Of a stretch of 64,000 nt of DNA, positions 14,016 through 30,146 are shown piece by piece. The stretch's first letter is position 1; the number at the start of each line of letters is the position of its first letter. Source of the stretch: Mycolicibacterium sp. TY81. GTDB lineage: Bacteria; Actinomycetota; Actinomycetes; Mycobacteriales; Mycobacteriaceae. The DNA is taken from contig NZ_AP023362.1 of NCBI RefSeq assembly GCF_018326285.1, positions 5,146,001 through 5,210,000 of the forward strand, read 5' to 3'. The notes beneath the pieces are model-generated. The model saw only the letters and a list, made by a program, of their open reading frames with translations. It had not been told where the DNA came from and made no database searches. The translations under genes and the position numbers were made by a program.

Positions 14016-14038
14016 GCGATCCACGCGACGCAACACAG

Positions 14039-14078
14039 GAGGTGGGCAGGTCGGCGTAGGGTCGACTCTGCCCACCTC
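14039..14078 (+). terminator. Hairpin between esxA and espI (candidate partial terminator)
   Basis: GAGGTGGGCAG (14039-14049) pairs perfectly with CTGCCCACCTC (14068-14078) across an 18-nt loop. No U-tract follows, which is common for mycobacterial hairpins. It lies just after esxA and before espI, so it could stabilise the abundant esxB-esxA message and reduce read-through. Confidence 0.55.
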
Positions 14079-14121
14079 ATGTGCGTTCCCGGTGTAATCC
14101 ACACACAATCGAGAGGTACTC

Positions 14122-15516
14122 ATGTCCGCCGACTATGACCGGCTTTTCAACAACTCGCCGGGCCAGGCCGACAACGAGGAAGCCACGCGAACCGTCGACC
14201 ATGCGACCCTTGCTGCCGCCGCGCAGATGTCTGCCTCCGCGGCCGCTGCCTCGGCTGCAGGGGCCGAATCGCCGTCGGGCCCGCCCGTTGCCGGCCAGCC
14301 ACAGCAGCCGCCGGGCATGGTCCCGCCGCCGCGGCCGTCTGAAGTGACGACTCAAATGCCGCCTACGCCACCGCAATTCATGCAGAACGGCCTGATGCGC
14401 TCGCCGCAGGGCGCGCCGATGGCCGGCGCGCAGTACGAGCAGCCGCAGCACGCCCCGATGATGATGCCGCCCCCACCGCGGCACATGCAGCCGCCGCCAC
14501 AGCACTACGCCATGGATCCCCAGGCCGACATGCAGTGGACCGAGCAGCACATGCCGGACCAGACGTCGGCCGCCACCATCGGCGACCACCGCGCCATCGA
14601 CGCGCTGTCTCACGTCGGCGTGCGGGCCGGGGTGAAGATGCCGTCGCAGCGTGGTTGGCGCCACGTGCTGTACCTGCTCACGCGGATCAACCTGGGCCTG
14701 TCGCCCGACGAACTGTACGAGTTGGACCTCTACACCCGGATCCGACGTAATGCCCGCGACTCGTACCAGATCGGTGTGCTCGGGCTGAAGGGCGGCGTCG
14801 GCAAGACGGCTGTCACGGTCACTCTGGGATCTGTCATGGCGAAAGTCCGCGGTGACCGAATCCTGGCTGTCGACGCCGATCCGGACGGTGGCAACCTGGC
14901 CGACCGGGCCGGCCGGCAGTCGGCCGCGACCATCTCGGATCTGTTGTCCGACAAGGAACTTGCGCGCTACAACGACATCCGCGCGTACACCAGCATGAAT
15001 GCCTCCAACCTCGAGGTGCTGTCGTCGGCCGAGTACAGCGTCGCGCGCCGCGACTTCAACGAAGAGGACTGGTCGGCCGCGGTCAAGATCGTCTCGCAGT
15101 ACTACAACCTGGTGCTCGCCGACTGCGGCGCGGGTTTGTTCCACCAGGCATCGCGAGCCGTGTTGTCGACCGTGTCCGGTCTGGTGATCGTCGCTAGCGC
15201 CTCGATCGACGGTGCCCGCCAGGCAGCGGTGACCATGGACTGGTTGCGCCAGAACGGATATCAGGATCTGCTGGGCCGGGCGTGTGTGGTCATCAACCAC
15301 GTGACACCGGGCAAGACCAACATCGACGTCGACGACCTGGTGCAGCAGTTCGAGCGGCACGTGCCGGCCGGCCGCGTCGTCGTACTGCCGTGGGACAAGC
15401 ACATCGCCGCCGGTTCCGACATCCAGTTCGACCTGTTGGGCAAGACCTACCAGCGGCGCATCACCGAACTCGCCGCGGCGCTGTCCGACGACTTCGACAG
15501 GCTCGAGCGCCGGTGA
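14122..15516 (+). CDS. espI: EspI, ESX-1 regulatory ParA-like ATPase
   Basis: The 464-residue protein has a proline/alanine-rich, probably disordered N-terminal region (about 1-170), the linker INLGLSPDE and a ParA/MinD-like ATPase domain with P-loop KGGVGKT (223-229) and ILAVDADPDGG. M. tuberculosis EspI is longer (666 residues), mostly because its low-complexity N-terminus is longer. EspI has been linked to shutting down ESX-1 when ATP is low, with the P-loop required. The ATG at 14122 follows GAGAGG. The stop overlaps the eccD1 GTG by 4 nt. Confidence 0.93.
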   Translation: MSADYDRLFNNSPGQADNEEATRTVDHATLAAAAQMSASAAAASAAGAESPSGPPVAGQPQQPPGMVPPPRPSEVTTQMPPTPPQFMQNGLMRSPQGAPMAGAQYEQPQHAPMMMPPPPRHMQPPPQHYAMDPQADMQWTEQHMPDQTSAATIGDHRAIDALSHVGVRAGVKMPSQRGWRHVLYLLTRINLGLSPDELYELDLYTRIRRNARDSYQIGVLGLKGGVGKTAVTVTLGSVMAKVRGDRILAVDADPDGGNLADRAGRQSAATISDLLSDKELARYNDIRAYTSMNASNLEVLSSAEYSVARRDFNEEDWSAAVKIVSQYYNLVLADCGAGLFHQASRAVLSTVSGLVIVASASIDGARQAAVTMDWLRQNGYQDLLGRACVVINHVTPGKTNIDVDDLVQQFERHVPAGRVVVLPWDKHIAAGSDIQFDLLGKTYQRRITELAAALSDDFDRLERR

Positions 15517-17057
15517 CCGCATCGGCCGGCCCCGCAACCGCCGCGCCCACCGCGGCAGCTGACAATCCGACAAGGCAGTCGACCACCCGGGTCACCATCC
15601 TGACGGGTCGACGCATGACCGATCTGGTCCTGCCGGCGTCGACGCCGATCGAGACCTACATCGACGAGACGGTCAACGTCCTCGCCGATCTGCTCGACGA
15701 CACCCCGGCCGATGTGTTGGCCGGGTTCGACTTCAAGGCCCAGGGCGTCTGGGCGTTCGCGCGCCCGGGGTCGCCGCCGTTGAAGTCCACCGAGTCGCTC
15801 GACGACGCCGGGGTCGTCGACGGTGCCCTGCTGACCTTGGTGTCGGTGAGTCGGACCGAACGCTACCGGCCGCTGGTCGAGGACGTCATCGACGCCATGG
15901 CGGTGCTCGAAGAGTCCCCAGAGTTCGACGGCGCCGCGCTGAAACGGCTTGTCGGACTGGCCATCCCAGTCGCGACGCTCGCAGTTGCTGGTGCGTCGTT
16001 GTGGTCGTGGTCGCAGTCCGGCCACGGTTGGTGGTGGCCGGTCGCGCTCGGCCTGCTGGGCGCGCTGGTGTTGGGCGGCAGCTTCGTTGCCAAGAGCCGC
16101 TACGACAACGTCGATCTGTCCGAGAGTCTTCTCGTGGCCTCGTTGCCGCTGTTGGGTGGCGCGGCCGCATTGGCGGTTCCGCTCCCTCGGGGCATCAACG
16201 ACATGGGTGCGCCGCAGCTCGCCGGGGCGGCGGCGGTGATTCTGATCGTCGTGCTGGCGACCCGCGGCGGGCCGCGCAAACGTGCTGCGGTGGCAGCTTT
16301 CCTGGCGGTCATCGCGGCCGCGGTGACCGGCGCCGCCATCGCTTACGGATATGGCGGAGCTTCGTGGGTTCCCGCCGGTGCCATCGCCCTCGGACTGATC
16401 GTCGTGACCAACGCGGCGAAGCTCACGGTCGCGGTGGCGCGGATCGCGCTGCCGCCGATCCCGGCCCCGGGTGAGGTGATCGCGAACGAGGAACTGCTGG
16501 ATCCGGTTGCCGCGCACAGCAATGTCATCGACGAAGAGTCGGCGACATGGCGCGCGATCATCGATTCGGTGCCTGATTCCGCGGCCCGCCTGACAGAACG
16601 CAGCACGCTGGCACGACAGCTGTTGATCGGCTTCCTGAGCGCCGGTGTCACGGTGCTGACCTACGGTGCCATCGCGATCGTGGTGCAGGGACACTTCTTC
16701 GTGCACTCGCTGATCGTCGCGGGACTGGTGACGGTCGTCTGCGGCTTCCGGTCGCGGCTCTACGCAGAACGGTGGTGCGGCTGGGCACTGTTGGCGGCGA
16801 CGGTGGCCATCCCGACCGGGGTGATGATCAAGTTGGTCTCGTGGGATGCCGACAGCGCCTGGCTGGTGATAGTGCTGTACGTCGCCCTTGCGCTGGTGGC
16901 GCTGATCACCGTCGGTGCGACGGACGGCGTCGGCCGCGTCTCGCCGGTGACGAAGAGGATCTTGGAGCTGACCGATGGAGCGGCGATTGCCGCGGTGATT
17001 CCGTTGCTGCTGTGGATCGCCGGGGTCTACGACAACATCCGGAACATCCGGTTCTGA
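15513..17057 (+). CDS. eccD1: EccD1, ESX-1 membrane channel subunit
   Basis: The 514-residue protein (511 in M. tuberculosis) has an N-terminal ubiquitin-like cytosolic domain (TTRVTILTGRRMTDLVLPAS to about residue 120) followed by about eleven membrane helices between residue 150 and the end. Two EccD copies per protomer form a membrane vestibule around EccC and EccE in the ESX core complex. The GTG at 15513 overlaps the espI stop (GTGA). It is the last canonical ESX-1 gene on the plus strand; a 100-nt gap separates it from the accessory island. Confidence 0.96.
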   Translation: MTASAGPATAAPTAAADNPTRQSTTRVTILTGRRMTDLVLPASTPIETYIDETVNVLADLLDDTPADVLAGFDFKAQGVWAFARPGSPPLKSTESLDDAGVVDGALLTLVSVSRTERYRPLVEDVIDAMAVLEESPEFDGAALKRLVGLAIPVATLAVAGASLWSWSQSGHGWWWPVALGLLGALVLGGSFVAKSRYDNVDLSESLLVASLPLLGGAAALAVPLPRGINDMGAPQLAGAAAVILIVVLATRGGPRKRAAVAAFLAVIAAAVTGAAIAYGYGGASWVPAGAIALGLIVVTNAAKLTVAVARIALPPIPAPGEVIANEELLDPVAAHSNVIDEESATWRAIIDSVPDSAARLTERSTLARQLLIGFLSAGVTVLTYGAIAIVVQGHFFVHSLIVAGLVTVVCGFRSRLYAERWCGWALLAATVAIPTGVMIKLVSWDADSAWLVIVLYVALALVALITVGATDGVGRVSPVTKRILELTDGAAIAAVIPLLLWIAGVYDNIRNIRF

Positions 17058-17157
17058 CGGGTCTTTCGGCCGCGCCCGGAGCGCGATACCGCTGCAGGAC
17101 CGACATGTTGGCGCCCGTACCGTGTCTTGAGTAGTCAATTTTTAGGGAGACCACGAT

Positions 17158-18261
17158 ATGTCCGAAAATCACGAGGCCGGCCCGGCGAGTGAGCAGCCGC
17201 CGACGGCCGGTGATCTCGAGGAGAAGACCCAGTTCGTCGATCGGTCGGCGTTCCAGTCGCCGAGCGCAGCCTTGCCGGGGACGGGCGACCAGACCCAGGT
17301 CGTTCCCTCGACCGCAGCCGCCCCCGAGACGGGTGACCAGACTCAGGTCGTTCCGCCGACCGTCGCGGCCCCGCAGTGGCAGCCGCCGCAGCCTCCCGCC
17401 GCGCCGAACCCTTACGGCCAGCAGGTGCCGCCCGCGGCCCCGCAGTGGCAGCCGCCGCAGCCGGGCTATCAGCCGCCGCAGTCGCAGTTCGGCCAGCCCG
17501 GAGCACCGGTGCCACCGCAGCCTGAGCAGCCGTGGAACCCCGCGGGTGCGCCCGTGCCGCCGCCGCCCCCGCCCGGGTTCGGCGCTCCGACCTACGGTGC
17601 CCCCGGGTTCGGCGCTCCGGGTTTCGGCGCTCCGATCCCGCCGGGATTTGGTCCGGGCGGCGCCCAGCCTGGTTTCGGCGCGCCCCAACCCGGTGGCTAC
17701 CCCGGCCCGGGTGCACCGCAGTTCGGCGGGCCGGCCGGTCCGCAGCAGACGCCGGTCGACATGGCCAAGTCGCTGCTCACCAAGGGTGATTCGTTCATCT
17801 TCCGGTTGATGACGCGCGGTGTCCGCGGCGAACTGATTCAGCAGCCGTGGTTCCAGAACATGCGGAACAACCCGCAGGGTTCCAACCAGTTCGTCTATCT
17901 CGGCTATGGCGGAGCGGTGCTGATCGGGCTGTTCCTCAGCCTGTTCGGTGGCATCGGTTCGCTCATCGCCAGTGTGGTCTGGCTCGGGTTGGCCTACTGC
18001 TTCCTGGCCCTCGGCACGAAGCTGGCAGCCCAGTTCGTGGCCTACGGGATTTGTGGTGTGGGTGCGGCCGCCAGCCTGCTGGGTCTGTTGATCGGCATCA
18101 TCGGCCTGGCGGGAGTGAGCAGCAGCCCCTACATCAGCGGTAGCCTCACGGCAATGTTGATACTGGCTGTGGTGATCAACGGTGTCATCGCAGTTGTGCT
18201 GGGCTACATCGGAATTCAGGTCCACAAGGGTATTCAGAAGATCGCTGCCGGTCAGTTCTGA
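17158..18261 (+). CDS. Proline-rich membrane protein with repeated TQ[VF]V motifs
   Basis: The family is not recognised. The 367-residue protein has a hydrophilic N-terminal half (1-200) rich in Pro, Gln and Gly with repeats such as PQWQPPQ and GFGAP, and a C-terminal half with about four membrane helices (from VYLGYGGAVLIGLFLSLFGG to the end). Near the N-terminus are EEKTQFVD and two copies of GDQTQVV, threonine motifs resembling phospho-acceptor sites read by FHA domains. It occupies the position of espJ, starts at ATG 17158 after AGGGAG, and ends at a strong terminator. It could be a phosphorylated partner of the FHA-ABC protein and kinase in this island (inference). Confidence 0.75.
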   Translation: MSENHEAGPASEQPPTAGDLEEKTQFVDRSAFQSPSAALPGTGDQTQVVPSTAAAPETGDQTQVVPPTVAAPQWQPPQPPAAPNPYGQQVPPAAPQWQPPQPGYQPPQSQFGQPGAPVPPQPEQPWNPAGAPVPPPPPPGFGAPTYGAPGFGAPGFGAPIPPGFGPGGAQPGFGAPQPGGYPGPGAPQFGGPAGPQQTPVDMAKSLLTKGDSFIFRLMTRGVRGELIQQPWFQNMRNNPQGSNQFVYLGYGGAVLIGLFLSLFGGIGSLIASVVWLGLAYCFLALGTKLAAQFVAYGICGVGAAASLLGLLIGIIGLAGVSSSPYISGSLTAMLILAVVINGVIAVVLGYIGIQVHKGIQKIAAGQF

Positions 18262-18274
18262 CAGCCCGACCGAT

Positions 18275-18308
18275 GAACGGTGCACCCTGACATCGGGGTG
18301 CACCGTTC
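18275..18308 (+). terminator. Strong hairpin terminator after the proline-rich membrane gene
   Basis: GAACGGTGCACCC (18275-18287) pairs perfectly over 13 bp with GGGTGCACCGTTC (18296-18308) around an 8-nt loop, 13 nt after the stop codon. No long T-tract. It separates the 17158 gene from the metallopeptidase gene at 18363. Confidence 0.75.
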
Positions 18309-18362
18309 GCTGTTCTGAAGCTGCCGGCAGGCCATAGTCTGAATCGAACGTCAGGGGGCACG

Positions 18363-19841
18363 ATGACAGGCGGTTTCGGATTGCGGGTGATACGCGGAAC
18401 GGCGCTGCGACGTTCGGTGGCGGTATGCGTGGTGACGCTGCTCGCCGGCTGTGCGCCGACCGTCGCCGGCACCGCGGTCTCGCCTGTCAACGACCCCTTC
18501 CACGTCGCCGACCTCCCGGCCAAGGATGGCCCGAGTGGGTTGCGCGACAACGCGCCCGCAGCGGTCGGCAAGGTGCAGAACACCAACAACAGCGACGTCG
18601 ACCGGCTGGCGTTGCAGGCGATCAATGACATCGCCGAGTACTGGCAACACGACTACAGCGCATCGGGTTTGAAGGGCTCATTCAAACCGATCGAGAAATT
18701 CCTGTCGTATGACGCCCGCGATCGGAGCAGTCCGGAGGCGTGCGGCGAGGACACCGCCGGCCTGGTGAATGCCTTCTACTGCCCCAGCGAGAAGCTGATG
18801 GCGTGGGACCGCGGCATCATGGTGCCGACCGGGCGAAAGTACTTCGGCGACGTCTCAGTCGCGGGTCTGATCGGGCATGAATACGGCCACGCGATCCAGT
18901 ACATGGCGAAACTGGTGACCCGCAGTACGCCGGTCATCGTCCGTGAACAGCAGGCCGACTGCTTCGCCGGCGCGTATCTGCACTATGTCGCGGCCGGTGA
19001 TTCCAAGCGGTTCATGATGAGCACCGGTGACGGCCTCAACCATGTGCTCGCCGGATTGATCACCGTCCGGGATCCCACGCTGGGGCCGCACGACGACGAC
19101 ATGCTCACCGACGGCCACGGCACCGCGCTGGACCGGGTCAGCGCGTTCCAGCAGGGCTTCACCGTCGGGCCGCAGGCCTGCGCGGCCATCGATCTGAACG
19201 ACATCAAGCAGCGCCGCAAGGGTCTGCCGATGGAGCTCGAAGATGAGCCGATGGACGACGATCACCGGTCCGCAGACCTGGCGATCGACAAGGACACGAT
19301 CGGCACTCTGGTCGAGTTGCTCGGGGTGATCTACTCCCCGAAGCAGCCGCCGAAGTTGACCTACGAGCCGGCGAAATGTGATATCTCACAGGGTGATTCG
19401 CCTGCCTCGTACTGTCCGTCGACGAACACGATCTCGGTGAACCTGCCTACCCTGCAACAGATCGGCACACCGGCCGACATGGCCGAAAAGACGCTCATCC
19501 AGGGTGACAACACGGCGTTCTCGATCATCGTGTCGAGGTACATGATGGCGCTCGAGAACCAGCGTGGCGTCAAGCTGGACAATCCGACAGCCGCGCTACG
19601 CACGGCCTGCCTGACTGCGCAGGCCCAGCGCCAGATGGCCAAGCCGCATGACCTGCCCAGTGGTGCCAGCCTGCAGTTGACCGCAGGTGACCTGGACAAG
19701 GCCGTCGCCGGGCTGCTCACCAACGGTTACGTGGCCACGGCGGTCGACGGGCAGGGTGTTCCGGCGGCATTCACCCGGATCGCGGCGTTCCGGGCGGGGC
19801 TGGCCACCGACGACGAGGGCTGCTACAAGCGCTACCAGTGA
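18363..19841 (+). CDS. Lipoprotein with neutral zinc-metallopeptidase-like domain
   Basis: The 492-residue protein has a signal peptide with lipobox LLAGC (lipid-anchored Cys near residue 30), so it should sit on the outer face of the membrane. HEYGH (172-176) is an HExxH zinc motif, followed 19 residues later by EQQADCFAG (E195), the third-ligand motif typical of the YpfJ-like neutral zinc metallopeptidase family. The active site is therefore intact. The C-terminal 250 residues repeat the theme without an HExxH (YCPSTNTISVNL resembles FYCPSEKLMAWD in the first half), suggesting an internal duplication with an inactive second copy. It is followed 13 nt later by the FHA-ABC gene; surface proteolysis linked to this module is inference. 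Confidence 0.78.
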   Translation: MTGGFGLRVIRGTALRRSVAVCVVTLLAGCAPTVAGTAVSPVNDPFHVADLPAKDGPSGLRDNAPAAVGKVQNTNNSDVDRLALQAINDIAEYWQHDYSASGLKGSFKPIEKFLSYDARDRSSPEACGEDTAGLVNAFYCPSEKLMAWDRGIMVPTGRKYFGDVSVAGLIGHEYGHAIQYMAKLVTRSTPVIVREQQADCFAGAYLHYVAAGDSKRFMMSTGDGLNHVLAGLITVRDPTLGPHDDDMLTDGHGTALDRVSAFQQGFTVGPQACAAIDLNDIKQRRKGLPMELEDEPMDDDHRSADLAIDKDTIGTLVELLGVIYSPKQPPKLTYEPAKCDISQGDSPASYCPSTNTISVNLPTLQQIGTPADMAEKTLIQGDNTAFSIIVSRYMMALENQRGVKLDNPTAALRTACLTAQAQRQMAKPHDLPSGASLQLTAGDLDKAVAGLLTNGYVATAVDGQGVPAAFTRIAAFRAGLATDDEGCYKRYQ

Positions 19842-19854
19842 GGAGAGTGCATTC

Positions 19855-22800
19855 GTGAGCTCCGTCCCGCCGCTGATCGTGACGCTCGGTGGCGCCATGT
19901 TCACCTTCCCGCCCGGCAAGGAGGTCACCGTCGGCCGCGGCGAGGCCTCGGACGTCAGGATCCCGGACGCCGGCCCCGGTGCCAAGCATGTGGTATCTCG
20001 GTTGCACCTGATCATCCGGGTAGACCCCGGTGTCGGTCAGTGGGTGGCAATCGACAAGTCCCGCAACGGAATCTTCGCCAATCGGATGCGCGTGCCGTCG
20101 GCCGTCATCAGTGACGACCTCGTGCTGGCCGTCGGAGCTCCGGACGGGCCGCAGCTCCACTTCCGTACGGCGACCCAGGTCATTCCGGTCGCCAAGTACC
20201 GGCAGCCACCGGCGCAGATGGCATCCCCGCGTCCGACGCAGCGGATCCCTCAAGCGCCACGGCCGGTTCCGCCGCAGCCGCCGCCTCCGCCGCCGCGCCC
20301 GCCTGCAGCCGCCCCACAACGCTCGTCGGGACCGCCCGCGGGCGCCGTCACCATCGGGCGGCATTCGACAGCGACCATCAGAGTCGACGATTCGCTGGCC
20401 TCCCGAATCCACGCCTACCTGATACCCGCCCCGACCGGAACCCAGCTGTACGACAACGGCTCGGGCAACGGTACTTTCGTCAACGGTCACCGCGTCGAGG
20501 CGGTCACGCTGCGCCCCGGGGACGTCATCACCGTCGGCAACACCGACCTGGTGTTCACCGGAGGTACCGCGGTCCAGTCGCGGCAGGCGGTCGCGACCGG
20601 TGGCATCGAGGTACGCCAGGTCGGCCTCGCCATCGAGGGCCACCAGCTGCTGACCAACGTGTCGTTCGACGCCCGGCCCGGCACTCTCACGGCGGTGATC
20701 GGCCCCTCGGGCGCAGGCAAGTCGACGCTGATCAGGCTGCTCGGCGGCGTCACCAAACCCACGTCCGGGCAGGTCACCTTCGACGGACACGACGTGCACG
20801 CCCACTATGCGTCGTTGCGGTCGCGGATCGGCATGGTGCCCCAGGACGACGTGGTCCATCGGCAATTGACCGTCAGTCAGGCGCTGAACTATGCCGCCGA
20901 ACTCCGGTTGCCGCCCGACACGAGCAAGGATGACCGCCACGCTGTGGTGGAACGGGTGCTCGCTGAGCTCGAGCTCGCTGCGCACCGCGACAAGCGGGTG
21001 GACAAGCTTTCGGGCGGGCAGCGTAAGCGCGCTTCGGTGGCGCTTGAATTGCTTACCGGCCCATCGCTTTTGATCCTCGACGAGCCCACTTCCGGTTTGG
21101 ACCCGGCGCTGGACCGACAGGTCATGCAGATGCTGCGCCGCCTGGCCGATGCCGGGCGCACGGTGCTGGTGGTGACGCACTCCCTGACGTACCTGAACAT
21201 GTGCGATCAGGTGCTGCTGCTGGCGCCCGGCGGCAAGACGGTGTACGCGGGGCCCCCGCAAGCGGTCGGATCAGCGATGGGTACACAAGACTGGGCCGAC
21301 ATCTTCGCCTGGGTTTCGGCCAATCCCGACGCGGCGCATGCGGTGTTCCTGCAGAACAATCCGGCCGCCGACCGACCGGCGGCGCCGCCGGAGCCCGCGG
21401 GTCCGCTCGGTGCACCGGCCCGTACCAGCACCCGCCGTCAGCTGCTCACCGTTGCGCGCCGGCAGTTGCGGCTGATCTTCGCCGATCGGATCTACACCAC
21501 CTTCCTGTTGCTACTGCCGTTCATCCTGGGCGCGATGTCGCTGATCGTGCCGGGGGACACCGGATTTGGGGTGGCGACTGTAGGCCACTCCCCCAACGAA
21601 CCGAATCAACTGCTCATCGTCGCCAACATCGCGGCAGTGTTCATGGGGACCGCACTGACGATCCGTGATCTGGTCGGCGAGCGCACCATCTTCCGCAGGG
21701 AGCAGGCTGTCGGTTTGTCGGCCGCCGCCTACCTTTCCGCCAAAATCGTTGTCTACAGCGCATTTACTGCCATTCAGACAGCAATCGTGGTGGCGATCGT
21801 GGTGATCGGCAAAGGTGCACCCACCCAGGGTGCCTTGCTGTTGGGCAGCCCGACTCTCGACTTCTATGTGAGTCTGACTGTGGCAGCAATTGTTTCGGCG
21901 ATCCTGGGTCTGCTGCTGTCCTCGGTGGCGCGGTCCAGTGAGCAGATTCTGCCGATGCTCGTCGTCGTCATCATGCTGTCGATCGTGTTCTCCGGCGGCA
22001 TGATTCCTGTCACCGGACGTGTCGGTCTGGATCAGGCATCGTGGTTCCTGCCGGGGCGGTGGGGCTTCGCAGCGTCGGCGAGCGTGGTCGACCTGCTGAA
22101 GATTGCTCCGCTCATGTCGGTCGACGATCAGCTGTGGCACCACGAATTACGTTGGTGGGCGCTGGATATCGGGGTGCTGGTGCTGCTGGGCGCGGTTGCC
22201 GGATTCGTGGTGTACCGACGGCTGCGGCTGCCGAGCTGCGGCGCCGAATCAGGTGCGCCGAAAGCGGCGCTGATCGTGGGCGCCGTGGTCCTGGCCGCGG
22301 GATTTGTGGCCGGCATGACCTACGTGACCCGCGACTCCGGAAACCGGCCGACGCAACCGACGGCACCCACAGCACCACCCAAAGCTGTTGCGCCGCCGGG
22401 GCACCGCATCGACCTGGCGACCCTGCTCCCCGACGGCAAGGCGGTGAGCGCCGCCATGCAGTCGCCGCCGATGGCGACCGCGACCATCGTCACCGCGGAA
22501 ACTCCGCGAGCAGGGACAGCCACTCCCCCGCCGTGCGCCGGTGTCGCGGACGCAGGTGGCGCCACAACCTTCGGCCCGGGGTTCACCGGGATGTCAGGTA
22601 TGGAACTGCGTAACCCGGCGGACCCGAATACCTGGATGGTTGCTTATGCCGTGGGCTATCCAGGACCGCAAGCAGCGGAACGGATTCCGGCCGCCGCGAC
22701 ATGGTTGGGATGTGCGAATACAGGTGTGACGTTCACGGCCGACGGCCGACCGGCGCGGCAGCTGGCCGTCGGTGGGGTCACATCCGACGACGGCACCCTC

Positions 22801-22947
22801 ACCGCGGAGTTCACCGAACCGGGGCGCAGCTGCCAGCACGTGCTGACCACCAAGGCCGATGTGGTGGTCGACGTGCTGGCGTGCAGCCCGGGCGGCGGCA
22901 CGCAGGCGGCGGAGCTGGCCAAGCAGATCGCTGACAAAGTCAGCTGA
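19855..22947 (+). CDS. FHA-FHA-ABC exporter with PknH-like extracellular domain (Rv1747-like)
   Basis: The 1030-residue protein has an FHA-like domain (1-110), a proline-rich linker, a second FHA domain (about 160-240; VTIGRHSTATI, SRIHA, NGTFVNG), an ABC ATPase with Walker A GPSGAGKS (283-290), signature LSGGQ (385-389) and Walker B LLILDEP, an ABC2-type membrane domain (about 540-800), and after a last helix an outer domain (840-1030) resembling the PknH extracellular sensor (cysteine pairs, WLGCANTG). FHA domains bind phosphothreonine. In M. tuberculosis the related Rv1747 (865 residues, no such outer domain as I recall) is phosphorylated by the neighbouring kinase PknF. Here a kinase gene lies 0.7 kb away, convergent. 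The GTG at 19855 after AGGAGAG was preferred over a longer frame overlapping the metallopeptidase. Confidence 0.88.
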   Translation: MSSVPPLIVTLGGAMFTFPPGKEVTVGRGEASDVRIPDAGPGAKHVVSRLHLIIRVDPGVGQWVAIDKSRNGIFANRMRVPSAVISDDLVLAVGAPDGPQLHFRTATQVIPVAKYRQPPAQMASPRPTQRIPQAPRPVPPQPPPPPPRPPAAAPQRSSGPPAGAVTIGRHSTATIRVDDSLASRIHAYLIPAPTGTQLYDNGSGNGTFVNGHRVEAVTLRPGDVITVGNTDLVFTGGTAVQSRQAVATGGIEVRQVGLAIEGHQLLTNVSFDARPGTLTAVIGPSGAGKSTLIRLLGGVTKPTSGQVTFDGHDVHAHYASLRSRIGMVPQDDVVHRQLTVSQALNYAAELRLPPDTSKDDRHAVVERVLAELELAAHRDKRVDKLSGGQRKRASVALELLTGPSLLILDEPTSGLDPALDRQVMQMLRRLADAGRTVLVVTHSLTYLNMCDQVLLLAPGGKTVYAGPPQAVGSAMGTQDWADIFAWVSANPDAAHAVFLQNNPAADRPAAPPEPAGPLGAPARTSTRRQLLTVARRQLRLIFADRIYTTFLLLLPFILGAMSLIVPGDTGFGVATVGHSPNEPNQLLIVANIAAVFMGTALTIRDLVGERTIFRREQAVGLSAAAYLSAKIVVYSAFTAIQTAIVVAIVVIGKGAPTQGALLLGSPTLDFYVSLTVAAIVSAILGLLLSSVARSSEQILPMLVVVIMLSIVFSGGMIPVTGRVGLDQASWFLPGRWGFAASASVVDLLKIAPLMSVDDQLWHHELRWWALDIGVLVLLGAVAGFVVYRRLRLPSCGAESGAPKAALIVGAVVLAAGFVAGMTYVTRDSGNRPTQPTAPTAPPKAVAPPGHRIDLATLLPDGKAVSAAMQSPPMATATIVTAETPRAGTATPPPCAGVADAGGATTFGPGFTGMSGMELRNPADPNTWMVAYAVGYPGPQAAERIPAAATWLGCANTGVTFTADGRPARQLAVGGVTSDDGTLTAEFTEPGRSCQHVLTTKADVVVDVLACSPGGGTQAAELAKQIADKVS

Positions 22948-22959
22948 CGGAAGGATCAG

Positions 22960-23661
22960 ATGAATCCCTGGCGTACTGGAATGCTCATCGGAGCGGTCGT
23001 CGTTGTGGCGGCGGGTTGTTCGGTCACTGACCGGAAAGTGTCGGGTACGGCCACGACGGCCACAGGTGCCGCTTCCCCGGCGACGTCGACATCAGCTGTA
23101 GCCAAACCGATCGATGATGCCGGCCTGCCGAGGCTGTTGGGCTCGCCCTCGGAGATCAGCGACCTGGTGGGCGTCGCGATGACGCCGGAGGCGATCTTCA
23201 GAAAACCGGATACGAAGCTGCGGGTGGAACCGATCCGCTGTCTCGAAGCGGTCATGCCGGCTCTCGACACCATTGGGTACTACGGCCGAACAGGTTTCGC
23301 AGGGCAGCTTCTTCACGGGGATCAGCATGCGCAAGTGGTGCAGGTGGTGGCCGCATTCTCGACGGACGCGGAGGCGGCGGGCTTTCGTGAGGCGACTACC
23401 GGACATTGGAGGTCGTGCCAGGACCAGCAGGCGACTGTCACGGGTGGTCGGGTGCCCCTGACGTATGCGTTGGAAAGAGTTGAATCGGTCGATTCCGTCG
23501 CGAGCGTTCCGGTGTCGGGGACAGCCAGCGACGGGACCCGGGTTCCATGTCAGCACGCATTGGGTTCGCGCAGGAACGTGATCATTGACGTGCGGGTATG
23601 TGCTCCGAACGTGGCAAACAAGGGGCGCGACCTAGTCGCGAAGATCGCCGCCGGCCTGTGA
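22960..23661 (+). CDS. Lipoprotein with PknH-like extracellular sensor domain
   Basis: The 233-residue protein has a signal peptide with lipobox VAAGC (Cys at about residue 20) and a domain similar to the outer domain of the preceding ABC protein and of PknH kinases: conserved cysteines, a GYYGRTGF region, VVQVVAAFSTDAEAAGF, WRSCQDQ and a C-terminal cysteine pair near ALGSR and RVCAP. It starts 12 nt after the ABC gene with GGAAGGATC upstream, so the two are in one operon. It ends 1 nt from the convergent kinase gene. Probably a surface sensor or adaptor; the ligand is unknown. Confidence 0.75.
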   Translation: MNPWRTGMLIGAVVVVAAGCSVTDRKVSGTATTATGAASPATSTSAVAKPIDDAGLPRLLGSPSEISDLVGVAMTPEAIFRKPDTKLRVEPIRCLEAVMPALDTIGYYGRTGFAGQLLHGDQHAQVVQVVAAFSTDAEAAGFREATTGHWRSCQDQQATVTGGRVPLTYALERVESVDSVASVPVSGTASDGTRVPCQHALGSRRNVIIDVRVCAPNVANKGRDLVAKIAAGL

Positions 23662-23662
23662 A

Positions 23663-25669
23663 TCAGCGGATGACACTCATCAGCGGAACGAAGTTGGCGT
23701 TGAGATACTCGGTAGCCAGGTAGCCGCCGGGATCGGCAAGTGCTGCAACGCTATTAGGGTCATCCACGATGATCATCGATCCGCGGTAGGCGGCCAATTG
23801 GTAGGGAAGCCCCGCTGCCCCACCGTTACCGGCGGCTTTGTCGGTGCGGACCACGACCAGTACTTCGCTGTGAATCAAGAACAATTTTCCAAGGTCGGGC
23901 ATCGAACGGGTTGAACTATTGTCGCCTGGCTTGCGACGCAATTCGGGGTCGTAGTTCAGGCCGAGCGAACTGAGATAGTCGGCCGCGTTGGACGGCGTCA
24001 GCGTCTGGCTGACGCCATCGTCCGACACGTGGATCACCTGGACGCTCTTCCCCGCGGCTCTCGGATTCTGATTCTTCAGGTCGGTCTGCTGGGACGACAC
24101 CTGATCAATGAGGTTGTCGGCGTCCTTGTAGCGGCCGAGAATCTTGCCGATCCATTTGAGCTGGGTCTGCCAGTTCCATGCTCGGCTGGTGTCTTTTGGC
24201 TGAGTCACGGTCGGGGCGATCGCGGCGAGGCGCTGGTAGGTCGCGTCATCGATCTCGCCGGTCGCGATGATGACGTCGGGTTTGGCGGCCTGAATGGCGC
24301 TGGTGTCGATGAAACCGACGGTGTCCTTGACCGACGGGGTTCCGGTGATCTTGGACTGCAACCATGAGGGCAGGGAAGTGCCTGCGCCGGCAATGGCCAC
24401 CGGTTGTAGGCCGAGCGACAGCACGGCGTCGGCGTCGCCGGGGCCCAAGGCGGCGACAGCTGTTGGCGCCTTTGTGATTTCGGTGGTGCCGTGGGCGTGC
24501 GTGAATGATTGCGCCGTGTACGCCGGGGCGTCGGGCTTGCCGATCAGCATGATGGAGGCGACGACCGCGATGACGGTGATCACGGCGGCGCCGGCGGCAC
24601 CGATGACTATTCGACGCTTGCGTGGACTCTTTTGTCGAGCAGCCGGAGGTTGGGGTGCCGCCATCTGGCCAGGCAGCGGGCCGGGCGGGTAAGGACCGCT
24701 GAACTGTCCGCTCGGATAAGTCAATACGCCATCGGGCGGTGTTGGCTGACGCGGCGGCCATGACTGCGAACCCGGAGGCGGTAGCCGACTGGGCGGCTGT
24801 AGCGCAGGGCCCGGGTTCGCGACGGCCGCGGTGGCCGCGGCCGCGAGTTCGCGGGCAGTCTGGTAGCGCGCGTTGGGGTCCTTCGCCATGCCGCGGGCGA
24901 TGACTTCGTTCAGCGCCCACGGAAGAGTAGGCACCCGATCCGTGACGCGCGGTATCTCTCCTGTCACGTGTGCTGCCGCGATCGCGGCGATGCCACCCGG
25001 CAGTCCTCCATACGGTGTCCGGCCGGTGAGTAGCACGAACAGGCTGCAGGCAAGCGAATAGATATCGGCTCGAGAGTCGACGTGCTGCCCACTGAGCGCT
25101 TCAGGTGGCGCATAGGCGATGGACGCCATGACCGAGCCGTCGGTGGTCAGGTGCGCAGCGTCATCAAAGGCGCGAGCAATCCCGAAGTCCGCCAGGAAGA
25201 CTCGTTCGTCATCACCGGGATCTTCGGCGTTGGCCAGCAGAAAGTTGGCGGGCTTGACGTCGCGGTGCATGATGCCCCGCCGATGCGCGTAATCGAGAGC
25301 CTTGGCGACCTCGGTGATGATGCGGGCCGCCCGCGCGGGTGACATCCGCCCGGACCGGACTTCCTGGTCGGCGTCGGTGCCCGCGACGTATTGCATGGCG
25401 ATCCACAGCTGACCCGCCTCGGTTTCGCCACGGGAGTAGACCGCGACGATATTGGGGTGGTCGAGCGTGGCGGCGACATTGGCTTCGCGGAGGAAGCGCT
25501 CCCTGAACTGGCCGTCGCCCTGGATGGAAGTGGTGAGAACCTTCAGCGCGTCGCTGCGGGGCAGCTGGGGATTCTTGGCCTTGTACACCACACCCATGCC
25601 ACCGACACCCAGGACGGATTCGATGGTGTAACCGGCCACGATGTCGCCGGGGTTGAAGGTCGAGGTCAT
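23663..25669 (-). CDS. Ser/Thr protein kinase with extracellular siderophore-binding-protein-like domain
   Basis: The 668-residue protein has a complete PknB-type kinase domain: glycine loop GVGGMGVV (21-28), catalytic Lys43 (ALKVL), HRDVKPAN (135-142), DFG (161-163) and APPE (187-190). After a Pro-rich linker (290-345) comes a membrane helix (354-376). The outer part (380-668) resembles class-III/FecB-type substrate-binding proteins that bind iron siderophores or cobalamin: VAALGPGDADAVLSLGL, then AIQAAKPDVIIATGEIDDAT and LAAIAPTV. A kinase fused to such a domain is unusual. It lies 10 nt downstream of a lipoprotein gene in the minus-strand run from mycP1/espB/espL. Ligand and substrates are unknown; the FHA-ABC protein is the obvious candidate. 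Confidence 0.88.
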   Translation of the reverse strand: MTSTFNPGDIVAGYTIESVLGVGGMGVVYKAKNPQLPRSDALKVLTTSIQGDGQFRERFLREANVAATLDHPNIVAVYSRGETEAGQLWIAMQYVAGTDADQEVRSGRMSPARAARIITEVAKALDYAHRRGIMHRDVKPANFLLANAEDPGDDERVFLADFGIARAFDDAAHLTTDGSVMASIAYAPPEALSGQHVDSRADIYSLACSLFVLLTGRTPYGGLPGGIAAIAAAHVTGEIPRVTDRVPTLPWALNEVIARGMAKDPNARYQTARELAAAATAAVANPGPALQPPSRLPPPGSQSWPPRQPTPPDGVLTYPSGQFSGPYPPGPLPGQMAAPQPPAARQKSPRKRRIVIGAAGAAVITVIAVVASIMLIGKPDAPAYTAQSFTHAHGTTEITKAPTAVAALGPGDADAVLSLGLQPVAIAGAGTSLPSWLQSKITGTPSVKDTVGFIDTSAIQAAKPDVIIATGEIDDATYQRLAAIAPTVTQPKDTSRAWNWQTQLKWIGKILGRYKDADNLIDQVSSQQTDLKNQNPRAAGKSVQVIHVSDDGVSQTLTPSNAADYLSSLGLNYDPELRRKPGDNSSTRSMPDLGKLFLIHSEVLVVVRTDKAAGNGGAAGLPYQLAAYRGSMIIVDDPNSVAALADPGGYLATEYLNANFVPLMSVIR

Positions 25670-25679
25670 TGTGGTCCGA

Positions 25680-26873
25680 TTATTTCGCAGTCAGCAGCAG
25701 ATACTGGGACGCCATTCGTTGTGTGGCGTCGAATGGTTGCAATGATGCTGCCGTATAGACCCACCGGTCCAGCGCTGCCGCGCAGGAGTAGACCCGGGCT
25801 TTGACGTCAGCGACATCGGTTGCCTGGCACTTCGCTGAGGGCAGGCCGGGCACGGCGGGACCAGGTTCACTTGGGTTCTTGGCGTCAGGCTCGGCGAACT
25901 TTTGCGCCAGCTGCGTCGCTGCGGCGGCGTCTTTGGCCCGGTACAGATGGGTGCCGCGTACCGAAACGACGTCAACGCCGGCTGGTGTCAGGGCGGTGCT
26001 CGTGAGTAACGGGTCGTCACTGAAATGAAGGATGCCGCGTGGCCCCCATAGGCCCTGATTGCTCTTGTGTTCCTTCGTGGGAACTGTCCGGCTGAGTAGG
26101 CCTTCGGGATCGGTTTGCATGGTGGCGAACTGCGCTGGATCGGTTGGCTGGAACTTGTCGATGCGTGAAGTCTGCATATCCAGCACCTTTGCAACGAATT
26201 GTGTTGCGGTGTCGCGGTTTACGTCACTCGAAGCGTATTGATACAGCACGTATGGCCCGTGCGGAGTATAGGAGCTGACTGTGAAACTTCGCTCTGACGT
26301 GGTGGCTGCGTGCGCGAGCGCCTCGGGATGTCCTGGAATTGATATCGGTTGATTGGGTGAGGCTGGATCTATTGTCGGGGCCTGTGCCGCGAATTGGCGG
26401 GCAGCGTCGTTGGCCAGGTCGGCTGTTGGGAATCGCAGTACCAGAATCACTAACTGGTTGTCGTGATCCGCGCCGCGAATGGTGCCACGACCTGAGCCGA
26501 ACCCGTTGATCAGCTGATGATCTTTGGCGATCTGCTTCATCGGGCCGGGCTCGACGCTGTTTAGGCGGTCGGCGTCGAGAAATACGCCCGTCACGTTCAC
26601 CCCGATGCTGATCAGGGTGGGATCGACTTCCCACGGTCCGACGACAAATTCGCCAAGCCGTTCGGCATCGATGAGGCGTCCAGATTCGGCGCCTGGTTTC
26701 AGCGCGGGCCCGGGCTTGGGTGCCGTCGGATAGTTCCCGGGGTTCAACAGGCTGACGATGGCGTCACCAGGCCTGAACGAGGGGTCTTTCGTCGCGTCGC
26801 CGTTCGTTATCGTTGTGCAGGCGGCCAGCAGTGCCACTGCGACCGTCGCTACGGCCAACTTGGCGGTCTTCAT
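25680..26873 (-). CDS. Lipoprotein, copy 1 of a tandem paralogous pair (DUF7373-like)
   Basis: The 397-residue protein has a signal peptide and lipobox LLAACTT. Its sequence (SLLNPGNYPT near residue 45, GPWEVDPTL, INGFGSGRG, VPTKEHKSNQGLWGPRG, and the end QRMASQYLLLTAK) is paralogous to the next gene upstream in the operon, 27031-28215. The first 75 and last 170 residues are highly similar between the copies while the middle differs. It resembles mycobacterial/nocardial lipoproteins that I believe are now called DUF7373. The ATG at 26873 was preferred because it precedes the signal peptide directly; an upstream extension lacks sense. The kinase starts 10 nt downstream. Possibly a ligand-presenting partner of the kinase. 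Confidence 0.78.
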   Translation of the reverse strand: MKTAKLAVATVAVALLAACTTITNGDATKDPSFRPGDAIVSLLNPGNYPTAPKPGPALKPGAESGRLIDAERLGEFVVGPWEVDPTLISIGVNVTGVFLDADRLNSVEPGPMKQIAKDHQLINGFGSGRGTIRGADHDNQLVILVLRFPTADLANDAARQFAAQAPTIDPASPNQPISIPGHPEALAHAATTSERSFTVSSYTPHGPYVLYQYASSDVNRDTATQFVAKVLDMQTSRIDKFQPTDPAQFATMQTDPEGLLSRTVPTKEHKSNQGLWGPRGILHFSDDPLLTSTALTPAGVDVVSVRGTHLYRAKDAAAATQLAQKFAEPDAKNPSEPGPAVPGLPSAKCQATDVADVKARVYSCAAALDRWVYTAASLQPFDATQRMASQYLLLTAK

Positions 26874-27030
26874 GACGTTCCCCATCGTCTCCCGACTGCG
26901 CCGGCTCCCCGTTGCGTTGCGCAGTGACTCTCCGCGAACTGTACGCACTCGAGCGCCTGAGTGCCTCAGCCCGCCGCGGCAACGGCCGGACGGCCTGAAG
27001 GCGGCCGAACGCGAGTTGAACCAGGTGCCG

Positions 27031-28215
27031 CTATTTCGCGGTCAGCAGCAGGTATTGGGATGCCATTCGTTGTGTGGCGTCGAACGGCTGCAACGAGGAA
27101 GCCACGTACACCCACCTATCGAATGACGCGGTGCAGTCGTAGACAAGCGCTTTCACTTCCGCATAATTGATCGCCCGGCACTTGGCCGCGGGGAGTCCGG
27201 GTACGGTCGGGCCAGGTTCGCTGGGGCTGCTACCGCCAGGCTCGGCGAGCTTCTGCGCGAGCTGCGCCGCGGTCGTGGCGTCTTTGGCCCGGTAGAGGTA
27301 GGTACCGCGTACCGAGATGACGTCGACGCCGGCTGCCGTCAATGCCGCGGCGGTTTGGACTGGGTCGTCTTCGAAATGAAGGAGGCCGCGTGGCCCCCAC
27401 AAGCCCTGGTTTGCCTTGTGTTCCTTGGTGGGCACCGTCCTGCTCAACAGTCCTTCTGGATCGGTCTGCATGGTGGCGAACTGACTGGGATCGGTGGGCT
27501 TGAAGTTGTCGATTCGACTTGCCTGAAGGTCTAACGACTTGGTCGCCAGTTGCAATGAAACGCCGGGGCTTTCCTGTGCTGTGCCGCTTTGAATCAACAC
27601 ATATGGGCCATGCGGGGAGATGATCGAGGTGGCGAACGTTCCATCAGGCATGGTGACTTGGAGCGCCTGCGATTCCGGATGTCCGGGTATCGGGAGATTG
27701 AGTTTCGTCGAGGGATCGTGGATGCCCGGGTGCCGTGTGTAGAAACCAGATGCTGCGGCAGCCGCTTCGTCGGGGCTTGGAAAGCGCAAAACGGTGTTCT
27801 GCAGTTTGCGGAGGTGGTCGGCGTCGACGTCCGTGTGGCGGCCGGAGCCGAATCCGTAGATCAAGTGGTGCTGTTGCGCCAGTTGGTCGAGCTCGGGCGA
27901 CAGGAGCGATACGACACTGAACAACAGACCGGTCGAAGTGAAGCCGACGTGCAGTAGCTGCGGGTCAATCTCCCATGGCCCGACCACGTAGTCACCCATG
28001 CGTTCGCCGTCGATAATCCGGCCGCTCTCGGGCCCGGGTTTCATGGCTGGTCCGGGCTTCGGCACCGTCGGGTAGTTGCCCGGGTTCAGCAGGCTGACTA
28101 TGGCGTCACCCGGCTTGAATGACGGGTCTTTCGTGGCATCGCCGGTCGTCACCGTGGTGCAGCCGGCCAACAGTGCCACGGCCGCGGTCGCCGCGGCCAG
28201 CTTGGCGATCTTCAT
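27031..28215 (-). CDS. Lipoprotein, copy 2 of a tandem paralogous pair (DUF7373-like)
   Basis: The 394-residue protein has signal peptide and lipobox LLAGCTT. It shares with copy 1 the opening DATKDPSFKPGDAIVSLLN, the block PTDPSQFATMQTDPEGLLSR and an identical C-terminal stretch FDATQRMASQYLLLTAK, with a divergent centre (about residues 95-225). It lies 10 nt downstream of espL, so it is probably co-transcribed with the ESX-1 genes mycP1-eccE1-espB-espL. A gap of 157 nt separates it from copy 1, the only sizeable break in this arm. Function unknown; it should be anchored on the outer membrane-facing surface. Confidence 0.78.
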   Translation of the reverse strand: MKIAKLAAATAAVALLAGCTTVTTGDATKDPSFKPGDAIVSLLNPGNYPTVPKPGPAMKPGPESGRIIDGERMGDYVVGPWEIDPQLLHVGFTSTGLLFSVVSLLSPELDQLAQQHHLIYGFGSGRHTDVDADHLRKLQNTVLRFPSPDEAAAAASGFYTRHPGIHDPSTKLNLPIPGHPESQALQVTMPDGTFATSIISPHGPYVLIQSGTAQESPGVSLQLATKSLDLQASRIDNFKPTDPSQFATMQTDPEGLLSRTVPTKEHKANQGLWGPRGLLHFEDDPVQTAAALTAAGVDVISVRGTYLYRAKDATTAAQLAQKLAEPGGSSPSEPGPTVPGLPAAKCRAINYAEVKALVYDCTASFDRWVYVASSLQPFDATQRMASQYLLLTAK

Positions 28216-28225
28216 TCAGTGACCG

Positions 28226-28564
28226 CTACGGCTGGGCGGGCGGATTACCGGCCGTGATCTCGGCGACGAGCTCGTTGAGGCGGGCCCGGTCGGCGTTGAT
28301 GGACTCGGTGGCCTTCGCCGTCGCGTTGCCCAAGGCCTCGTTGATGCGGGCTTCGACGGTTTCCGCGCCGAGGCGCAGCAGGCCGTCCTCGATGAACAGG
28401 TCCGTCAGCCAGTGGTGGCCGTTGAGCGTGACCTCGACGGTCTTGGCCTCGTCGGTCGCGGTGAACGACTCGGTGTTCATCTTGGCGAGCTGCTCGTCCA
28501 TGACCGACTGCAGACGCTGGGCCTGCTGGAGAACCGCAGCGACCTCGGGGTGCATCTCGATCAT
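28226..28564 (-). CDS. espL: EspL, ESX-1 accessory protein
   Basis: The 112-residue protein matches M. tuberculosis EspL (115 residues): MNTESFTATDEAKTVEVTLNG, HHWLTDL, IEDGLLRLGAETVEARINEAL. The fold looks like the YbaB/EbfC family of small nucleoid-associated-like proteins. EspL is cytosolic and in M. marinum is needed for stability or secretion of ESX-1 substrates. It overlaps the 3' end of espB by 4 nt, so translation is coupled, and is followed 10 nt later by a lipoprotein gene. The usual next gene, espK, is absent. Confidence 0.92.
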   Translation of the reverse strand: MIEMHPEVAAVLQQAQRLQSVMDEQLAKMNTESFTATDEAKTVEVTLNGHHWLTDLFIEDGLLRLGAETVEARINEALGNATAKATESINADRARLNELVAEITAGNPPAQP

Positions 28565-30132
28565 TTGGTGTCCTTCTTGTCATCGATCTTGGTGCGACGC
28601 CGGTGTCCGATGACGCCGTCGGTGAAGGCCCGGTCCTCCTTGTACAGGACCTCGTCGGGCGACAGGTTCGCGTTGCGCTTCTTCTCCTTGCCGCCTTCGC
28701 GGCCAGCGCCGTGGCCGCCCATGCCGCCACCCATGCCGCCACCCATACCGCCGCCGCCGACCGGAGGGCGGCCCGCGGCCTGGCTGGCGCCACCGGCTGC
28801 CGCACCACCGGCACCCACCGCGGGCGCGACGGCTGCCGGCTGCATGGGCTGGCCGCCCAGCCCACCGCCACCGCCTCCGGACCCGCCGCCCGCGCCGCCG
28901 CCCGCGGACGCCGGGCTCACGCCGGGGCCGTCGGGCAGACTCGGCATCTCCGGCTTGTCGCCGCCCAAGCCGCCGGGCATGCCACCGCTCGGTGAACCCT
29001 GTCCGGAGCCGCCTGACGGCGAGCCGCCACCGGAAGGTGAACCGCCAGAGGGTGATCCGCCGCCTGCGGGCTTCTGCTCACCGGCAGAAGCCGGGCTGAC
29101 GCTCGGCGACTCCGGAATCGATGGCGTCGCACCACTCGGGGTGCCACCGCCGCCACCGGCCGATGGTCCACCTCCACCAGGTCCTTGGGGCGCGCCTGTG
29201 CCGTTGCCGTCTTTCTTCGCCACGTCTCCCGGCTTGACGGCCGGCCACGGGCTCGACCCGAAGTTGGGTGGTGGCGGGGTGACGAGGGATCGGATCGTCG
29301 CCTGCTGCGCGTACTTGGCTCGTACGGTGTCGGATTCTTGCTGCTTGGTGGCGTGGCCGGTGAAGAAGTCGTATGCCGCCTGACCGACTGTCGCGAGCAC
29401 GCTGGCGTTCTCGTAGTCCGCCACGTCCTGCATGCTGGGATGCTCGGGTCGCCTGCCGCCATGGATCGTGGATAGTTCGATGGCCTGGACGGCCAGGTTG
29501 TTCGCTGCCGCGGTCATCGCCGTCAGCCACGTCGAGTAGTCCTTCAGCGCCGTCTCCGCGGCTTCGGCAGCGTCGCCTTCCCACTCGACGCCCGCCATGT
29601 TGAACTTGCCGTTCAGTTCAGCCAGTTTCGCTGCCACTGCAGTCATTTTCGCGCCGAACTCGATCATCGAGGCGCCCTGGTCGCCGCCGTTGATCTGCTT
29701 GGCGGCCACCTCCCAGTCCATGCCGGGATTGCTGGGGTGCGATTCGGCTCCGCCAAGCGATTCGAGCATCCAGGGCAAGCTGCCGACCGGGTCTGAAGGG
29801 GCTGGTGCCGGGGGCAGGTTGGGCGTGATCGGTGCACCACCGCCAGCGCCCAGCTCGGTGGCATTGATGCCGGATTTCCCGGCTGCGTCGGCAGCGTCGT
29901 AAGCCGCGGCGGCCGCCCGTAGGCAGGCCGCCAGTCGCCGATTCTGAGCCCGCCCAGCCTTGAGTGCGGCGTCGAGCTGCTGCAGGTTGTTCTTGAGGAA
30001 ACCGGTGGCCTCTTGCGCGATGGTCAACTCGCATGGCGCATTGGGCGCCGGCGGCAAGGTCGGCAGGTCTACGTCGACTTCAGCGGCCTTGGCGTTCAGC
30101 GTCTCCGAGGAGACTTTCAGTTTTCCAGCCAT
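28561..30132 (-). CDS. espB: EspB, secreted ESX-1 protein
   Basis: The 523-residue protein (460 in M. tuberculosis) has an N-terminal PE/PPE-like helical domain (about 1-290) with the export motif YDAAD near residue 78 and a WxG turn (VEWEGDAAE). A Gly/Ser/Pro-rich C-terminal region with SPSGG repeats follows, ending in a charged tail (KIDDKKDTK). EspB is exported by ESX-1, processed by MycP1 in its C-terminal region, and forms a heptameric ring with the PE/PPE-like domain. The longer low-complexity region explains most of the extra length. It is 14 nt downstream of eccE1 and overlaps espL by 4 nt. Confidence 0.94.
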   Translation of the reverse strand: MAGKLKVSSETLNAKAAEVDVDLPTLPPAPNAPCELTIAQEATGFLKNNLQQLDAALKAGRAQNRRLAACLRAAAAAYDAADAAGKSGINATELGAGGGAPITPNLPPAPAPSDPVGSLPWMLESLGGAESHPSNPGMDWEVAAKQINGGDQGASMIEFGAKMTAVAAKLAELNGKFNMAGVEWEGDAAEAAETALKDYSTWLTAMTAAANNLAVQAIELSTIHGGRRPEHPSMQDVADYENASVLATVGQAAYDFFTGHATKQQESDTVRAKYAQQATIRSLVTPPPPNFGSSPWPAVKPGDVAKKDGNGTGAPQGPGGGGPSAGGGGGTPSGATPSIPESPSVSPASAGEQKPAGGGSPSGGSPSGGGSPSGGSGQGSPSGGMPGGLGGDKPEMPSLPDGPGVSPASAGGGAGGGSGGGGGGLGGQPMQPAAVAPAVGAGGAAAGGASQAAGRPPVGGGGMGGGMGGGMGGHGAGREGGKEKKRNANLSPDEVLYKEDRAFTDGVIGHRRRTKIDDKKDTK

Positions 30133-30146
30133 CTACTTGCTCCCCC

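Follow-up and report, generated by a model that had tools for sequence, protein, structure and literature searches.

A PknQ-type kinase module between eccD1 and espL in the ESX-1 locus of Mycolicibacterium sp. TY81

What has come to occupy the ESX-1 locus of Mycolicibacterium sp. TY81 between eccD1 and espL, and does it act there on the secretion system that surrounds it? A sequence-only reading had placed seven genes in this interval (the slot), where M. tuberculosis presumably has espJ and espK, and had seen in them a signalling island possibly acting on ESX-1. We followed this up on the same 64,000-nucleotide stretch of DNA (the window; contig NZ_AP023362.1, positions 5,146,001 to 5,210,000). 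All seven genes were found (Table 1): g1 to g4 on the plus strand, and the kinase and the lipoproteins LP2 and LP1 on the minus strand, the stop codons of the convergent g4 and kinase genes being one base apart. The gene identities first proposed were borne out by Pfam, with Zn_peptidase, two FHA domains with ABC_tran and ABC2_membrane, PknH_C and Pkinase all matched. As a kinase module the island is of a known kind; what is new is its setting, which is recurrent. We take it, at a probability of roughly 0.6, to be a transmembrane phospho-signalling module of PknQ type, such as is found on mycobacterial plasmids (many of them ESX-bearing), that became lodged in a hypervariable slot and works as a kinase-FHA-exporter relay.

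The assignment to PknQ turns on the outer half of the kinase, which the sequence-only reading had passed over. Pfam matched the ectodomain to Peripla_BP_2 (E 1.4e-14), and Pfam, PDB profile and fold comparison agree on a FepB-like, class III binding protein; the ectodomain alone was compared with the PDB, a profile search with the whole kinase having been swamped by kinase domains. A hydrophobic segment starts at about residue 354, and the RD-type kinase domain is intact, HRDxKPxN and DFG being present in 13 of 13 slot copies. The FHA, ABC, kinase and HEYGH motifs are likewise all present in the island proteins. The closest precedent is the PknQ-MupFHA-MupDivIVA system of pMUM001, described in passages of PMC4238996, where a Ser/Thr kinase with a FepB-like ectodomain phosphorylates its linked FHA partner MupFHA; here, the linked FHA-domain gene is g3, and a tblastn match in pMUM001 covers 80% of the kinase at 50% identity. 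Unlike PknQ, the TY81 kinase is chromosomal and lies within ESX-1, the FHA domains are built into an ABC exporter, DUF7373 lipoproteins and a zinc peptidase belong to the set, and no DivIVA domain was matched in the seven island proteins (Pfam, E up to 1), a trait that is not defining here. It also differs from PknH, in that the sensor domain is found on lipoproteins and the exporter instead of on the kinase.

The distribution of the kinase was surveyed by searching 148 genomes of the genus, including that of the window, with the ectodomain. It occurred in 29 genomes at 31 places, whereas eccD1 was found in 87. The predicted co-occurrence with ESX-1 was upheld in nine of the 29 kinase-bearing genomes, in which the kinase lies within 15 kb of the 3' end of eccD1, with the ectodomain at 29 to 14,390 bases (G000, G064, G089, G131, G138, G146, G149, G157, and G170). 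In G118 and G152, it is on the 5' side of eccD1, at 21 and 27 kb, respectively, and the kinase type is also present in genomes without an eccD1 match at 1e-100 (e.g., G005, G009, G012, G096, G104, and G141). In a plasmid collection, the ectodomain was found in 24 records (23 mycobacterial and one from Tsukamurella), which include near-identical plasmids; at least 14 of these also have a type VII EccC or a close FtsK/SpoIIIE match, one of the 14, an M. avium plasmid, being annotated as FtsK/SpoIIIE only. This count used the EccC of pRAW as query, as the chromosomal EccCa retrieved few mycobacterial plasmid EccC genes. The set of sensor, kinase, phosphothreonine reader and transporter that had been recognized in the island therefore recurs elsewhere in parts, but it is not specific to ESX-1, being found on plasmids and at other loci too.

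On pRAW, pCBMA213_2, and pMYC1, an FHA gene, two DUF7373 genes and the kinase follow one another in that order on one strand; in the remaining plasmids read, the kinase is preceded by one or two DUF7373 genes, and PknH_C, FHA or zinc-peptidase genes are close by in most. The M. alvei plasmid, which also bears an ESX locus, carries the kinase, a DUF7373 gene and an FHA-FHA-ABC-PknH_C exporter whose ABC part shows 71% identity; several PknH_C sensor genes are lined up next to its kinase (L143, 13453-21040), like a sensor cassette array. On pRAW, annotated Pycsar effector and cyclase-domain genes directly follow the ESX locus (L203:19577-20992). A g1 relative is found on ICEMyc226 of CBMA 226. 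The contig on which this strain has the kinase is 389,088 bases long, close to the published 388,440 bases of ICEMyc226; the two are probably the same element.

The companions of the kinase are also recurrent. Of the 38 distinct ectodomain frames preceded by 1.2 kb or more of sequence (near-copies counted apart, and a second piece of L186 included), 36 follow a same-strand DUF7373 gene that lies no more than 500 bases upstream; the two exceptions are L107, in which it is downstream, and the frame-broken copy L186. For the 21 frames with 5 kb on both sides, DUF7373 was found within 10 kb in 21, PknH_C in 20, FHA in 17, and zinc peptidase in nine; g1 occurred in four. Conversely, the module families were absent from all 40 kinase-free eccD1 stretches of at least 15 kb and from 12 further kinase-free stretches, which implies that these genes accompany the kinase and not ESX-1 as such; a scan of 18 named eccD1 loci without the kinase gave a PknH_C protein in one and a g1 relative in one. 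The eccD1 stretches examined came from 60 of 91 listed places, together with G062, that of the window not being among them. DUF7373 is not tied to the kinase in reverse, because the window genome has two more DUF7373 genes elsewhere and yet only one ectodomain match.

A tree was built from 37 kinases, L107 (a short frame) and L186 (frame-broken) having been dropped from the 39 distinct kinases. Its 13 slot rows require three changes, forced by well-supported branches, and plasmid rows fall between the three slot groups (for two of the 11 rows labelled plasmid, G120 contigs C2 and C3, the label was taken from contig size). The group that includes the window is sister to pCBMA213_2, and then to pMYC1 and G152; the third group (G089, G131, and G157) lies among plasmid rows; the second, of seven rows, has no clear nearest kin. 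A single gain in the slot, with all 13 rows together, was rejected (approximately unbiased test, p 4e-6), as was each pairing of the window group with another slot group; the groups themselves had been defined with a first tree already in view. The arrangements differ correspondingly: the kinase is behind espL in the window group, antiparallel next to the end of eccD1 in the second (in two genomes 14 kb away on the same strand), and downstream of eccD1 on the same strand in the third.

The same island is in the same place in the nearest named relatives, CBMA 234 (L111) and lyk4-40-TYG-92 (L112), whose EccD1 is 91-94% identical to that of the window; L112 has one DUF7373 gene only between kinase and espL, and the L111 contig stops before espL. 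A further relative with 90% identical EccD1 (L113, a metagenome-assembled contig of 8122 bases, so that misassembly is possible) has the order eccD1, g1, about 170 bases, espL, and the start of espB, from which it follows that g1 is separable from the rest of the island. The 170 bases contain a piece homologous by blastn to the start of LP2 and its upstream region (Table 1), and the simplest reading is that g2 to LP1 were lost, leaving a scar. The alternative that the L113 site was never occupied, as a pure insertion in the window would have it, was rejected because this piece persists. In another genome, that of Mycobacterium sp. OTB74 (L114), the slot after the g1 relative holds a PE-PGRS_C aspartyl-peptidase-like protein (12965-14923) and a luciferase-like monooxygenase (15084-16208); espL was not found there within the 10 kb examined.

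The exporter g3 was originally compared to Rv1747. The domain order of Rv1747 is FHA-FHA-ABC, and by Pfam g3 likewise has two FHA domains, a nucleotide-binding domain and a transmembrane domain in one chain. The Ser/Thr kinase PknF of M. tuberculosis is paired with this ABC exporter (PMC3908365). Two FHA domains have been described for Rv1747, and the pairing of exporter and kinase in the island stands as one likeness, PknQ remaining the nearer precedent. In contrast to Rv1747, g3 ends in an extra PknH_C domain (residues 909-1084 of the scanned open reading frame; whole-protein E 6.6e-25) and has a separate paralogue in the window genome (59% over residues 113-795); the kinase ectodomain, unlike that of PknF, is a binding protein, and kinase and exporter are convergent with g4 between them, not a two-gene operon. 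We therefore liken g3 to Rv1747 in its working without filing it as Rv1747. The g3 linker contains TQVI and TQRI, and in 49 g1 relatives (including near-copies and the g1 of the window), 58 TQ[VFIL]V motifs lie in the N-terminal halves, where shuffles predict 0.18. Relatives of g1 adjoin the kinase operon on pCBMA213_2, pMYC1 and in G152. LP1 and LP2 are 64% identical tandem paralogues of the DUF7373 type (PF24088/PF24092), and residues 69-238 of LP1 are predicted to adopt the PknH-ectodomain fold, the model matching the solved PknH ectodomain; to PknH and PknH_C proteins, the island is thus alike in the g3 C-terminus, in g4, and, by predicted fold, in this part of LP1.

If the island works as we propose, an iron complex of the heme or siderophore type, or a lipoprotein state, would be sensed by the kinase through its extracytoplasmic binding-protein domain, with the DUF7373 lipoproteins beside it as companions. 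The kinase would then phosphorylate TQxV/TQxI threonines on g1 and on the linker between the FHA domains of g3; the two FHA domains would read the phosphothreonines and gate export by g3, and events on the outer side would be reported by the PknH_C domain of g3 and the lipoprotein g4. We infer the ligand and the substrates, the sequence of steps, the exported cargo and the passage from plasmid to chromosome. Several points weigh against this reading. The relay is proposed from gene content, intact catalytic and binding motifs, recurrent linkage, repeated appearance in the slot and predicted folds; slot and plasmid kinases are mixed in the tree, which does not give a direction. The full exporter was present in just four of the 21 well-covered modules, and is therefore not a universal output, and plasmid modules often have a separate FHA gene. 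The profiles of DUF7373 and PknH_C match weakly (hhalign probability 43.7% local, 64% global), and an IdeR-like box, sought as a sign of iron regulation, had no match in the window. Among the repeats listed for 18200-28400 (20 of 49 families of direct repeats, 25 of 101 pairs of inverted ones), none paired the island borders, and an insertion mechanism was therefore not seen.

It is possible, although we doubt it, that the slot is a tolerant landing site and the module a passenger, an iron or envelope sensor unrelated to ESX-1. Slots elsewhere hold EspA/EspE-like and WXG100-like proteins, transposases, a PE-PGRS_C protein and a luciferase-like enzyme (10 of 59 picked open reading frames scanned; the picking missed many genes, and two WXG100-like matches fell below the curated cut-off). 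In 10 of 60 stretches, eccD1 and espL are less than 400 bases apart, and espL relatives 59-75% identical adjoin eccD1 in such near-empty slots. ESX-1 is also split in several species: eccD1 and eccE1 are 60-76 kb apart in nine genomes (G011, G063, G089, G103, G105, G126, G131, G146, and G157), consistent with a break at the eccD1-espL junction. However, about 15 kb of a 6-Mb genome holds nine of the 31 kinase places, in three tree events, a rough estimate that a preference for an insertion site could also affect; finding this kinase type in one place in each of three groups argues for more than random landing. Two of the slot proteins (L048:341-1954 and L087:665-2548) have an EspA/EspE or WXG100 domain fused to Abhydrolase_8; with a domain of ESX-substrate type joined to an alpha/beta hydrolase, they look like secreted enzymes.

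Direct control of ESX-1 by the kinase, through expression of espL-espB-eccE1-mycP1 or through substrate secretion, we consider unlikely. The module does lie within ESX-1, in the same position in L111 and L112, and has appeared next to eccD1 repeatedly; gaps of 10 nucleotides, which had been taken as the rule for the minus-strand genes behind espL, do separate espL from LP1 and LP2 from the kinase, but LP1 and LP2 are 82 nucleotides apart, or 145 with the 401-residue start of LP2. Co-transcription with mycP1-eccE1-espB-espL cannot be general, because none of the eight slot genomes beyond the window group has eccE1 close to eccD1: it is at least 67 kb off, on the opposite side, or on a separate contig (197 kb away in G170; in G149, 243 kb away and on the opposite side). 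Arrangement differs among the three slot groups, the kinase type exists where eccD1 was not matched, and L113 retains espL and the start of espB without the island; furthermore, self-identity conferred by a slot gene of M. smegmatis is reported to appear independent of ESX-1 function (PMC9040860). The observation that began this work was thus confirmed and extended, and its interpretation is supported in part: the phospho-signalling module stands, and a role for it as ESX-1 regulator is not supported by these results.

That gene, Msmeg0070, confers self-identity in distributive conjugal transfer, and Msmeg0069-0078, in the same ESX-1 interval, were mapped as the mating-identity (mid) region; in transfer assays, mutants of mid genes otherwise resemble esx1 mutants (PMC9040860; PMC3706393). 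Msmeg0069-0071 resemble the island in lying between eccD1 and the espB side of ESX-1 and in varying between strains and species. Unlike the island proteins, they are described without an obvious motif or domain (passages of PMC3706393), and no kinase is reported at the mid locus in the passages of either paper; the likeness is one of position, and the 29-locus named scan included no M. smegmatis locus. It is quite improbable that the module acts in cell-cell recognition or DNA transfer as a plasmid-derived counterpart of mid, for although it shares that interval, accompanies an ESX locus, a MobF relaxase and conjugal transfer genes on pRAW, is on pCBMA213_2 (described with type VII and type IV secretion systems; PMC7478629) and probably on ICEMyc226, and has duplicated and divergent surface lipoproteins, 10 of the 24 plasmid records have no EccC among the matches listed, and the ectodomains of the closest relatives are 82-97% identical to that of the window and not obviously hypervariable.

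We favor the kinase-FHA-exporter relay over these alternatives. A broader conjecture, speculative and rather unlikely, sees the slot as a place where a plasmid-born kinase switch has docked repeatedly; the switch would sense heme or siderophore and surface lipoproteins and decide the timing of ESX-linked cell-cell contact or DNA transfer, as a phosphorylation-based alternative mating-identity locus shared by conjugative plasmids and the chromosome. Surface-sensing switches, as predicted from their genes, do seem to have been parked at this slot on several separate occasions. Searches of the literature on PknQ, DUF7373, and eccD1/espL kinases or plasmids, the last judged by title and opening of the abstract, found no description of a PknQ-type kinase within ESX-1 and no paper on DUF7373; the passages and Discussion of the PknQ paper (PMC4238996) make no mention of ESX-1. 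The island links the plasmid kinase PknQ, plasmid type VII systems and the mating-identity slot of ESX-1, which are treated apart in the literature searched. If the module does act on ESX-1 or DNA transfer, it would offer a defined kinase, a reader and candidate phosphosites with which to study how environmental mycobacteria sense neighbors or iron before type VII use; even otherwise, its appearing on three separate occasions makes the slot a likely place of exchange between plasmids and ESX-1, and for DUF7373 there is now a predicted fold as well as a partner.

Table 1. Features of the eccD1-espL slot in window coordinates.
Feature	Position	Strand	Remarks
eccD1, left border of slot	15513..17057	+	PF19053 EccD; start codon as chosen here
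g1, Pro-rich N-terminus, three TQ[FV]V motifs, C-terminal hydrophobic segments read as membrane spans	17158..18261	+	
Hairpin after g1, 12-bp arms	18275..18308	+	Also in L113, where both arms are changed to match
g2, neutral zinc metallopeptidase lipoprotein	18363..19841	+	PF04228 Zn_peptidase, E 1.2e-8; HEYGH present
g3, FHA-FHA-ABC-ABC2 membrane protein, C-terminal PknH_C	19855..22947	+	Pfam
g4, PknH_C sensor lipoprotein	22960..23661	+	PF14032, E 9.1e-28
PknQ-type Ser/Thr kinase	23663..25669	-	Kinase domain, Pro-rich linker, hydrophobic segment, binding-protein ectodomain
LP2, DUF7373 lipoprotein	25680..26885	-	401-residue start as in database record; longest open reading frame starts at 26948
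Sequence with scar counterpart in L113 between g1 and espL	26847..26964		blastn
LP1, DUF7373 lipoprotein, tandem paralogue of LP2	27031..28215	-	Pfam
espL, YbaB-like, right border of slot	28226..28564	-	PF02575

The surrounding locus is ESX-1, because in addition to eccD1 and espL, it contains espG, eccA1, eccB, eccCa and eccCb (two FtsK/SpoIIIE genes), PE, PPE and two WXG100 genes to the left of the island, and espB, eccE and the subtilase gene mycP to the right (Pfam); an EspI-like gene, recognized by inspection, is also on the left. The G+C content of the island is 64.7%, compared to 66.5% in the left flank (2889-17057) and 69.7% in the right (28226-32881). No Pfam family matched g1; the hairpin 3' of it may be the end of a g1 unit, although it was not among the terminator-scan matches. 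The scan of 17000-28700 gave two promoter-like matches where 1.7 were expected and seven terminator-like ones where 6.1 were expected, and is therefore uninformative. The largest direct repeats at 18200-28400, among the matches listed, are LP1 and LP2 themselves. Three further Ser/Thr kinase domains lie upstream of ESX-1, 3.5 kb and about 30 kb before the window (contig positions 5141760-5142506 and 5113709-5115690; G000:C1), and a search of the genome with the PknQ-type ectodomain did not find it in these three. To the right of mycP1, a sugar phosphotransferase system operon on the minus strand (33375-37172) encodes an EIIA/EIIB protein, a PfkB kinase and a DeoR regulator.

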